Source: Gammaproteobacteria bacterium (GTDB taxonomy: Bacteria; Pseudomonadota; Gammaproteobacteria; Steroidobacterales; Steroidobacteraceae). From it: a DNA stretch of 64,000 nt. The position numbers were made by a program, and so were the translations under genes. The notes under the pieces were generated by a model. That model ran no database searches. It was not told the origin of the DNA and worked only from the letters and a program-made list of their open reading frames with translations. This document shows positions 41,022 through 45,219 of the stretch, one piece after another. Where the stretch lies: assembly GCA_025359565.1 (NCBI GenBank), contig JANYFY010000026.1, positions 62,001 to 126,000 of the forward strand, given 5' to 3'. Numbering within the stretch: the stretch's first letter is position 1; every line of letters starts with the position of its first letter.

Positions 41022-41530
41022 GTGGTGAAAGTAGGCAAAACTGCCGTATTAACAGAGCGATTTAAACTGCGGTTCTCGCGTACCGAGGGAAGTCTGAGCG
41101 CGGATGGGCCGGGAATTGACGGTGGCGCGATATGTCTGGCGTCGGGCCTTTGCCCAACGGCTTCTCCTAGTTTCAGTTTTTTGACCGCGGGTGCGGTAAG
41201 CGGGTCATTTGTTTATGATTCGACATTGCAGCCCGTAAATTTCAACTTGACCTCGACCGCGCCCGCTAGTTTTGGGGGTATTCAAATTCTCGCCGGTTCG
41301 GCTTTTTCAGGGGTTGTGTCGGTGACTCAGTCGACCTTGAGTTCCGGAATTCAGGTGACTGAAACGGGGTTTGGGTTTGGATTAGCCTTATAAACTATTC
41401 GTCCGGCACAACGCCGCTCTTAAGCGCGCCTATCATCTCTGCGCTCACCTGCACTATAGGGACTGGAAGCGATCAGTGCGGGCTTACTCTTGGCCCCACT
41501 AACCTTCAGTTAACGAACGGCGGTACTCAT
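41022..41530 (+). pseudogene. possible remnant of a secreted beta-rich protein
   Basis: Between the decarboxylase-like gene and rpoH, a first frame (to 41393) reads AVSGSFVYDSTLQPVNFNL and FGGIQILAGSAFSG; a shifted frame from about 41393 continues with ISALTCTIGTGSDQCGLTLG and [10 protein letters not shown]. The Ser/Thr/Gly/Asn-rich composition resembles PEP-CTERM-type surface proteins. There is no signal peptide and a frameshift is needed, so I call it a fragment with low confidence. Confidence 0.35.
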
Positions 41531-42393
41531 TATGCCGCGACCATCATCCCCTTAAGCTTAGCAATGGCATTCGTTTCGACCTGGCGCACGCGCTCAGCCG
41601 ATATGCCATATTCATCTGCGAGCTCATGTAAGGTCGCTTTGTCATCGGTCATCCAACGACGCTTTAAGATGCTGCGACTACGATCATCTAATTTATTGAG
41701 CGCTACGCTTAATCGATCCGTGGAATCCTCTTCCCATTCCTCGCGCTCCACTTCAACGGCAGGATCCGCATTGTGTGCAGGCAAGTACATCGCCGGCGAA
41801 TAAGTTTCTTCCTCATCCGATTCTGGCGCGGGATCGAAGGACATGTCGCGCGCCGAGAGCCGCTGCTCCATCTCGCGTACGTCTTTCACCTCCACCCCTA
41901 AATCCTTCGCCACGGCCTGGGTTTCCGCTTCCGACAACCAGGTGAGATTCTTCTTCATTTTACGAAGGTTAAAGAACAGTTTACGCTGCGACTTAGTCGT
42001 CGCCACTTTTACCAACCGCCAGTTCCTCAACACATACTCGTGGATCTCTGCGCGTATCCAATGCACGGCAAAGGACACCAGCCGGACGCCCACGGTAGGA
42101 TCAAAGCGCTTCACCGCTTTCATTAAACCCACGTTACCCTCTTGTACCAGGTCACCCATCGGCAAGCCGTAGCCTAAGTAGCCCCGCGCAATATGCACCA
42201 CAAAGCGCAGGTGCGAGAGCACCAATTGTCGCGCCGCGTCCAAATCCTCTTCGTTACGGAAACGCGTGGCTAACGCCACCTCAACTTCTTTAGAAAGCAC
42301 CGGGATTTGGGACACACGGTCTATATAGGAGTCTAAACTCCCGACGGGACCCGCAAATATCAACGAATTTTGTTTAGCCACTAAAGCAGTCAT
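41530..42393 (-). CDS. rpoH: RNA polymerase heat-shock sigma factor RpoH (sigma-32)
   Basis: A 287-aa sigma-70 family factor. Region 2 holds [39 protein letters not shown] and [20 protein letters not shown]. The RpoH box [10 protein letters not shown], which distinguishes sigma-32, is intact near residue 136. Region 4 has [19 protein letters not shown]. The ATG has AGGAG 7 bp upstream. It follows ftsX by 122 bp and has its own promoter there, covered by a CIRCE element. Confidence 0.97.
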
Positions 42394-42407
42394 TCATTCA
42401 CTCCTAA

Positions 42408-42423
42408 ATTACCCTGCGGTAAT
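42408..42423 (-). promoter_or_regulatory. hairpin beside the rpoH ribosome binding site
   Basis: ATTACC-GCAG-GGTAAT forms a 6-bp stem with a tetraloop, ending 2 bases before the AGGAG region of the rpoH leader. It could affect ribosome access with temperature, though it does not itself mask the Shine-Dalgarno bases. Confidence 0.35.
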
Positions 42424-42437
42424 CGCTGTAAGGCCTC

Positions 42438-42467
42438 ATTATAGCACTCACAGGGCTTGAGTGCTAA
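42438..42467 (-). promoter_or_regulatory. rpoH promoter overlapped by a CIRCE element (HrcA operator)
   Basis: On the minus strand TTAGCACTC-N9-GAGTGCTAT (42441-42467) matches the CIRCE consensus TTAGCACTC-N9-GAGTGCTAA in 17 of 18 arm bases. TTAGCA of the left arm is an acceptable -35, and TATAAT (42438-42443) begins inside the right arm, 18 bp downstream. HrcA binding would therefore block the promoter directly. Confidence 0.88.
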
Positions 42468-42515
42468 CGCGCCACCCAGGGCGTTTAAATAATTTTCATC
42501 ATTAAAAACAGATAG

Positions 42516-43436
42516 TTACGACGGCTCAATCGCCTTAATATGGTGAGTAGCCGCCGTCCAAGACCCGAGCCAGCTTAAAAACACCGACCCCATTAAGACC
42601 GCCAAGCCGGTACCAAAGTTCACTCCCGCTAAGTGGAACGAACTGCCATACAAGGTCGCCAACCGCGTCACCGAATTGCTAAGCGCCAGGACCCCGACCT
42701 CGACTAAACCTAACGCCATCAATCCACCCCCTAAACCGTACCACACGCCGCTATACAGGAAGGGCCGACGAGCAAAAGCATCCGTCGCACCCACCAATTT
42801 CATTACTTCAATTTCCATGCGACGATTAAGGATATCTAAACGAATGGTATTGCCTACGACTAGCGCAACACCCAGACCTAATAACCCGGCCGTGATTAAG
42901 ACTACCCGCCGCAAAATATCGAGTAACGAATATAAGCGTTTAACCCAATCGGTATCCAACGCGACCGTCTCAACATCGGGCACTTGCGCAAGGGCGGACT
43001 TCAGAGCGGCGCCACCCTCCGGAGTGCTCGCGCTCAAGGTGGGAGTCACAATCAACGTATCGGGCAAAGGATTGTCACGCAACGCATCGAGAGCTGCGCC
43101 GAATCCCGACGAGCTGCGAAACTCCGCGAGCGCCGCCGCCGCCAGGATCACTCGCACGCTCGCTACATCGCTGCGCGCTCTGAATTGCTGCGCAATCAGG
43201 CTCGTGCGCGTGGCACTAGCTTTTTTGTCGATGTAAACCGAAAGATCAAATGCTTGATTCCAATTTTCAGTAGCGATTCGCGCGTTTTGCAAAAACACGT
43301 TCAAGTACAACGGCAAGCTCAACGCAATACCAATGACCGTGATGGTCATCGCGGACGCAAACGGGGTCGACACCAACCGACCTAACGAACCAAGCAGCGT
43401 TTGTGCATGCCGCGTGAAATACGCTTCGACGCTCAT
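42516..43436 (-). CDS. ftsX: cell division protein FtsX
   Basis: A 306-aa integral membrane subunit of the FtsEX complex, which activates peptidoglycan hydrolases at the septum. Four membrane helices are visible (SAMTITVIGIALSLPLYL near the start, then VVLITAGLLGLGVALVVG and two at the C-terminus), with a periplasmic loop between helices 1 and 2. RLDILNRRMEIEVMKLVGAT is the typical cytoplasmic loop. The start overlaps the end of ftsE by 4 bp. Confidence 0.94.
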   Translation of the reverse strand: MSVEAYFTRHAQTLLGSLGRLVSTPFASAMTITVIGIALSLPLYLNVFLQNARIATENWNQAFDLSVYIDKKASATRTSLIAQQFRARSDVASVRVILAAAALAEFRSSSGFGAALDALRDNPLPDTLIVTPTLSASTPEGGAALKSALAQVPDVETVALDTDWVKRLYSLLDILRRVVLITAGLLGLGVALVVGNTIRLDILNRRMEIEVMKLVGATDAFARRPFLYSGVWYGLGGGLMALGLVEVGVLALSNSVTRLATLYGSSFHLAGVNFGTGLAVLMGSVFLSWLGSWTAATHHIKAIEPS

Positions 43437-44191
43437 CGCGGTGTGCCCGCCGGGGGGCGCCCGGCGGCGGAAGATGCTGTGTGCAGCGATGCGTGCGATG
43501 CTGCTTGCGCCGCTGCTTGCGCCGCGTGAGGTGGCGCTTCGCCAGTGACACGGCCCTCTCCCAGCACAATACGTCGTGCATTCAAGTGATCGATCAAGTG
43601 CACATCGTGGCTGGCGATGACGACTGTCACACCGACATCATTAAATCGTTTAAACAGTTGTATGATCTCTAGCGCTAGTTCTGGATCAAGATTGCCGGTG
43701 GGCTCATCGGCAATCAACAATTTCGGCTTCGCGACCACTGCACGCGCGATACCGATTCGTTGTTGTTCGCCGGTCGAAAGTTCAAGCGGCCGTAATTTAT
43801 CCTTATCCAGTAGGCCCACTTGATCCAGTGCCGCGCGCACTCGTTTGTCGATTTCGCGTTGTGATAGGCCTGCGATAATTAAGGGTAGCGCGACGTTTTC
43901 AGCCACTGAGCGATCAACAATAAGCTTGTGATCTTGAAAGACGACTCCTAAGCGACTGCGAAATTCAGGGATTCCGCGTGGGCGAATGGTGGCGGTGTTT
44001 TGAGTATCCACCCACACCTGACCGCGAGTGGGACGCTCGATGAGTGCAATGAGTTTCAGGATGCTGCTCTTGCCGGCGCCGGAATGGCCTGTCAGGAAAA
44101 CCATTTCGCCGCTTGCAATATTTAAGGTCACGCCCGCTAATGCTTCGCGGCCGTTCGCGTAGCGTTTGTGAACTTGATCAAAGCGAATCAT
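43433..44191 (-). CDS. ftsE: cell division ATP-binding protein FtsE
   Basis: A 252-aa ABC ATPase partner of FtsX. It has Walker A GHSGAGKSS, the family segment FQDHKLIVDRSVAENVALPL, signature LSTGEQQRIGIARA and Walker B LLIADEPTGNLD. The last 30 residues are an Ala/His-rich tail (PPHAAQAAAQAASHASLHTA) not found in typical FtsE (about 222 aa). It overlaps ftsX by 4 bp downstream and ftsY by 4 bp upstream. Confidence 0.95.
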   Translation of the reverse strand: MIRFDQVHKRYANGREALAGVTLNIASGEMVFLTGHSGAGKSSILKLIALIERPTRGQVWVDTQNTATIRPRGIPEFRSRLGVVFQDHKLIVDRSVAENVALPLIIAGLSQREIDKRVRAALDQVGLLDKDKLRPLELSTGEQQRIGIARAVVAKPKLLIADEPTGNLDPELALEIIQLFKRFNDVGVTVVIASHDVHLIDHLNARRIVLGEGRVTGEAPPHAAQAAAQAASHASLHTASSAAGRPPAGTPR

Positions 44192-45219
44192 GCCGGTGCT
44201 TTACCCGGAGCCCGCGGCGGGTCATGAGGCGGATTGCGAGGTAGCTGCCGCGTAGTTTGGGTTGAGTCAGTTTTCAAAAGAGCAGTGACAAAATCTGCGG
44301 CGACGAAATTACCGAAGTCCTCGATTTGCTCCCCGACACCAATGAAGCGAATCGGTATTTGTAATTTTTGCGCAATGGCGAGCACCACGCCGCCTTTGGA
44401 AGTGCCGTCGAGTTTGGTGATGACAAGGCCGGTCACACCTAACCCCTTATTAAATTCCTCGGCCTGTGCAACGGCGTTTTGGCCAATAGTGCCGTCAAGC
44501 ACTAAGAGGACTTCGTGAGGAGCGGTGGCGTCGAGTCGGCTGAGCACGCGTTTAATTTTCTTGAGTTCGTCCATAAGATGGGTTTGTGTATGTAGTCGGC
44601 CAGCCGTATCGGCAATGAGCACATCGATATCCCGTGCGCGGGCGGCTTGTAGGGCGTCGAAAATCACCGCGGCTGGCTCGGCGCCTTGAGATTGAGCAAT
44701 GAGGGGGACTTGGTTGCGGGTGGCCCAAACTTCGAGTTGCTCGCGTGCGGCCGCGCGAAAAGTATCGCCGGCCGCCAGCATCACGCTATGGCCATCGTCC
44801 ATGAGTCTGCGTGCCAGTTTGCCGATCGTAGTGGTTTTGCCAGCCCCGTTGATACCAATGACTAAAATCACATAGGGTTTGTGCTGTGGCGCGATGACAA
44901 GAGACTGTTCCACGGGCTTTAAGATGGCGGTCATAGACTCGTGCAGAGCCGCTAGCAGTGCGTCAACGTCATCGAGTTCCTTGCGCGCGACGCGCATGCG
45001 CAGGTCACCTAGGATTCGAGTCGTAGCTGCGGCTCCGACATCGGCGGTAATAAGTCGGGTCTCTAATTCGTCGAGGATTTCAGCGTCAATTTTGCGGCCG
45101 GGCAATAGTTGGGCGATATCCGTCGTTAGCCAGGAGTTTCCTGAGTTGAGTTTGGCGCGAAGCCGCTGGAAAAAGCTGCGTGCGCCGGATTTTTCGGCTT
45201 CATTGCTCATAGGAGGCAC
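44188..45219 (-). CDS. ftsY: signal recognition particle receptor FtsY
   Basis: A 343-aa SRP receptor GTPase. A short N-terminal region replaces the long acidic A domain of E. coli FtsY. The NG domain follows with P-loop GINGAGKTTTIGKLA, DTFRAAAREQLEVWA, DTAGRLHTQTHLMDELKK, TKLDGTSKGGV and GVGEQIEDF. ATGs at 45219 and 45210 are both possible. It is the first gene of ftsY-ftsE-ftsX and is divergent from rsmD. Confidence 0.96.
   Translation of the reverse strand: MPPMSNEAEKSGARSFFQRLRAKLNSGNSWLTTDIAQLLPGRKIDAEILDELETRLITADVGAAATTRILGDLRMRVARKELDDVDALLAALHESMTAILKPVEQSLVIAPQHKPYVILVIGINGAGKTTTIGKLARRLMDDGHSVMLAAGDTFRAAAREQLEVWATRNQVPLIAQSQGAEPAAVIFDALQAARARDIDVLIADTAGRLHTQTHLMDELKKIKRVLSRLDATAPHEVLLVLDGTIGQNAVAQAEEFNKGLGVTGLVITKLDGTSKGGVVLAIAQKLQIPIRFIGVGEQIEDFGNFVAADFVTALLKTDSTQTTRQLPRNPPHDPPRAPGKAPA

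Follow-up and report, generated by a model that had tools for sequence, protein, structure and literature searches.

Accounts of the heat-shock response usually treat HrcA, with its CIRCE operator, and sigma-32 as two distinct systems. The former is known from the class I genes of Bacillus subtilis and from many proteobacteria, in which a repressor of the HrcA family and the operator TTAGCACTC-N9-GAGTGCTAA, overlapping the promoter, are found at groESL and hrcA-grpE-dnaK. For the sigma-32 of E. coli, control lies mainly in translation, protein stability and the binding of chaperones, and a control search of E. coli for hrcA found none. The same regulators were reportedly treated in beta-, gamma- and epsilon-proteobacteria by Permina and Gelfand in 2003, and that work may include rpoH among its CIRCE targets. 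A close described case is that of Geobacter sulfurreducens, for which a CIRCE element is predicted at rpoH, at position -51 (Table 8 of Rodionov et al. 2004, PMC545781). This prediction shares with the locus described here the operator, the gene and the placement near the start codon; Geobacter sulfurreducens likewise possesses sigma-32.

The operator and promoter upstream of rpoH

The rpoH gene of the window (the whole stretch of 64,000 nucleotides that was analysed) occupies positions 41530..42393 on the minus strand. Its translation scores 412 bits against the TIGR02392 equivalog model (cut-off 323), corresponds to PRK06596 and contains the RpoH box (QRKLFFNLR), all of which identify it as RpoH (sigma-32). 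The genes ftsX (42516..43436), ftsE (43433..44191) and ftsY (44188..45219) lie upstream on the same strand, and the resulting order ftsY, ftsE, ftsX, rpoH is that of E. coli. Within the gap of 122 bp that separates ftsX from rpoH sits a CIRCE palindrome at 42441..42467 of the minus strand, which reads TTAGCACTC-AAGCCCTGT-GAGTGCTAT from 42467 to 42441 and continues with AAT down to 42438. This TTAGCACTC-N9-GAGTGCTAT operator, kept in relatives, agrees with the consensus inverted repeat at 17 of 18 arm bases and has the N9 spacing. It is the only match in the window at three or fewer mismatches (0.02 expected in shuffles). The preliminary description had placed a 17-of-18 CIRCE element at 42438-42467, and the presence of a real CIRCE element on the rpoH promoter is confirmed. 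At one mismatch or fewer, chance would supply 8e-8 such sites in the gap and 0.002 in the 3.14 Mb genome. A chance palindrome thus has practically no probability, and its retention in more than 100 genomes of the class already refutes this explanation.

A promoter scan of positions 42380-42600 returned a single sigma-70-type site, TTAGCA-18 bp-TATAAT, matching at 10 of 12 bases where 0.2 sites would be expected. The -35 hexamer TTAGCA (42462..42467, minus strand) coincides with the six outermost bases of the left CIRCE arm, and the first three bases of the -10 hexamer TATAAT (42438..42443, minus strand) fall within the right arm; the CIRCE element therefore overlaps both hexamers of the sole predicted promoter of this heat-shock gene. 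The scan upholds the earlier proposal that the arms contain the -35 and the start of a perfect TATAAT. The single mismatch to the CIRCE consensus (final A to T) is also what brings the -10 to a perfect TATAAT. For a sigma-32 promoter at rpoH the only matches are weak ones (9/13), inside ftsX or upstream. Transcription would begin about 7 nt past the -10, giving a predicted rpoH leader of roughly 38 nt.

The position of this promoter bears on the alternative that the palindrome works in the rpoH leader as an RNA hairpin and is not a DNA operator. In some bacteria CIRCE can indeed be part of the transcribed leader. Here, however, the -10 overlaps the right arm at the downstream edge of the palindrome, so that the transcript would start beyond it, and the presence of the palindrome across genomes tracks that of hrcA. 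An RNA-level role was rejected on the position of the -10, and the hairpin is considered highly improbable.

The hrcA and groES genes and the distribution of the site

A DNA operator of this type calls for its cognate repressor, and the check for hrcA suggested in the preliminary description was answered by a gene upstream of grpE scoring 344 bits against TIGR00331 (cut-off 197). No recognisable CIRCE precedes hrcA(-grpE) in this genome, the best upstream match having 6 mismatches, in contrast to the operons of the Bacillus subtilis type, and HrcA autoregulation was accordingly rejected here. At most about 30 bp separate the start of hrcA from a divergent nadK-like gene (L001:2499-2530), too little for a promoter region of its own.

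At up to three mismatches the whole genome contains just two CIRCE-like sites, the rpoH site with one mismatch and a site upstream of groES (L005:1416-1442) with two, the latter having TTAGCAGCC as its left arm. Judged by consensus match alone, the predicted operator at rpoH is better than that at groES. The degenerate groES arm TTAGCAGCC is common to most genomes of the genus and to some other genera of the family, and because it is so shared the weaker groES operator looks fixed and not decaying. Upstream of the groES CIRCE there is also a weak sigma-32-like match, CTTGAAT-N13-CGCTAT (10/13); such a promoter would bring groE under the control of HrcA and sigma-32 alike, but the match is too poor to carry that conclusion.

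Among 98 genomes of the genus, family and order, 93 carry at least one CIRCE at two or fewer mismatches, mostly exactly two, and those fetched loci of relatives that hold rpoH carry CIRCE just upstream of it. Of the 19 copies found in this window's genus, 18 have T as the last arm base, which gives TATNAT in most; this base is the one counted as the mismatch in the present site. In a separate collection of named genomes, the rpoH CIRCE is found in Steroidobacteraceae, Woeseiaceae, Dyella, Silanimonas, Thioalkalivibrio, Methylomonas, Ketobacter and others, and is absent from those of Legionella, Halomonas, Pseudomonas, Acinetobacter, Aeromonas and Idiomarina. A variant with both arms altered (TTAGCAGTC, GACTGCTAA) occurs at rpoH in Pseudoxanthomonas, Stenotrophomonas and Luteimonas. 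Three of these loci (L063, L074 and L084, from Pseudoxanthomonas and Stenotrophomonas) have matching arm changes upstream of rpoH, of the form TTAGCAGTC-N9-GACTGCTAA or close to it. The pairing of arm changes in these Xanthomonadales suggests a shifted HrcA specificity.

The association with hrcA was examined in 167 genomes drawn from across the class, usually one or two from each family, which were scored for hrcA and in which rpoH was located. The 350 bp upstream of rpoH were read in 147 of these, and the other 20 were left out. A CIRCE at three or fewer mismatches precedes the orthologous rpoH in 102 of the 111 genomes with hrcA and in 6 of the 36 without it (p about 1.6e-17, Fisher test, n=147, with genomes treated as independent and phylogeny allowed for only through the roughly one-per-family draw). 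None of 2980 composition-shuffled rpoH upstream regions reaches three mismatches. The comparison of rpoH promoters among relatives, also proposed beforehand, finds the element retained across the whole order and in most of the class, its presence following that of hrcA. Both checks support the earlier reading that HrcA would repress rpoH.

The exceptions to this pattern fall on both sides. Nine genomes possess hrcA and lack the rpoH site, and because those examined retain the groES CIRCE (0-2 mismatches), the link between HrcA and rpoH is dispensable in some lineages. In reciprocal fashion, two of the six genomes with an rpoH site and no detected hrcA (G168 and G201) also retain CIRCE at groES, for which reason the lack of hrcA in them may simply reflect a gap in the assembly. 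Four sampled genomes lacking both hrcA and a groES CIRCE retain something CIRCE-like at rpoH. Two species of one genus in which hrcA was not found (G258 and G154; loci L139 and L148) have a modified palindrome, TGTGCACTC-N9-GAGTGTTAA, at rpoH and no groES CIRCE; this palindrome may be used by another regulator. Two genomes, G122 and G238 (L188, L198, L172, L201), have two rpoH genes each, only one of the two with a CIRCE-like site upstream.

The fusion of operator and promoter was compared across the class between 108 rpoH sites and 57 groES sites. Three positions past the right arm, where a -10 would have its final T, a T is present in 96 of 108 rpoH sites against 8 of 57 groES sites (p 5e-22), and this difference identifies the rpoH site, on sequence comparison, as a predicted composite of CIRCE and promoter. 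Relatives' rpoH sites have a -10 of the TANNNT type at the equivalent position, the commonest hexamers being TAAAAT, TAATAT and TAAACT. At left arm position 3, a change of A to G (yielding TTG) occurs in 30 rpoH sites, whereas the mirror change in the right arm occurs in 2 (p 2e-7); the corresponding numbers at groES sites are 9 and 3. The -35 hexamer is TTGGCA, nearer to TTGACA, in 25 of the 108 rpoH sites. These asymmetries run in the direction that would help a promoter reading towards rpoH.

A proposed GroE-sensing brake on sigma-32

Very probably, an operator for HrcA and the vegetative (sigma-70-type) promoter of rpoH are here fused into one element, which would form a GroE-sensing brake on sigma-32 transcription. 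HrcA binding, the repression of rpoH and its timing are inferred, and the link to GroE is drawn by analogy with HrcA in other bacteria, where the repressor depends on GroE; HrcA sites overlapping the -35 and -10 are known from Helicobacter (PMC6032397). Under this proposal free GroE would keep HrcA active, and active HrcA on the palindrome would cover the -35 and -10, exclude RNA polymerase and hold rpoH transcription low. Upon heat, unfolded proteins would occupy GroE, HrcA activity would be lost, and rpoH and groESL would be derepressed together, with the extra sigma-32 raising the rest of the heat-shock genes. Once enough GroE had been made, HrcA would recover and close rpoH again. The net effect would be a GroE-sensing transcriptional brake added to the control of sigma-32.

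Alternatively, HrcA may bind while rpoH is supplied mainly by read-through from ftsYEX or by another promoter, with sigma-32 controlled mostly by translation and stability and the operator having a small effect. No intrinsic terminator was found between ftsX and rpoH, and read-through from ftsYEX could yield rpoH transcripts that would in part escape HrcA; moreover, E. coli controls sigma-32 after transcription (PMC6032397). Against such translational control, the rpoH leader has no match to the Rfam rpoH thermometer family, and folding of the transcript's first 250 nt is only marginally stronger than that of shuffled sequences (z -1.4, a value that does not exclude a thermometer), leaving an RNA thermometer in the leader unsupported. 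That the operator and the promoter embedded in it are both strongly conserved across the class is an argument for the importance of the site, and this alternative is regarded as unlikely.

Relation to described heat-shock circuits

Repression of rpoH by HrcA through the composite site would differ from the Bacillus subtilis type of HrcA/CIRCE control in its target, which here is the sigma-32 gene and not a chaperone operon. The Geobacter sulfurreducens prediction concerns one species of the delta-proteobacteria (as named there), a different phylum-level group, and the passages concerned do not describe promoter overlap or a class-wide pattern (PMC545781). The novelty implied by the preliminary description is smaller than it suggested: the pairing of CIRCE with rpoH was already predicted in 2004 for Geobacter sulfurreducens (PMC545781), and it is a rule among HrcA-bearing relatives and not a peculiarity of this genome. 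The open literature searched yielded no experimental demonstration of HrcA control of rpoH. The present work adds the class-wide rule, for which priority is uncertain, and the composite promoter.

E. coli has the same rpoH gene in the same ftsYEX-rpoH order and, without HrcA, appears to be the exception, since about nine in ten of the sampled HrcA-bearing gammaproteobacteria share the arrangement. We lean towards the view that in the class Gammaproteobacteria (GTDB sense) HrcA repression of rpoH via a promoter-fused operator is both ancestral and general, that the two textbook heat-shock circuits form one cascade there, and that the E. coli circuit is what remained after the loss of hrcA. If HrcA does control rpoH in most of the class, GroE availability would set sigma-32 transcription within a single cascade, and the E. 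coli model would represent a derived case.
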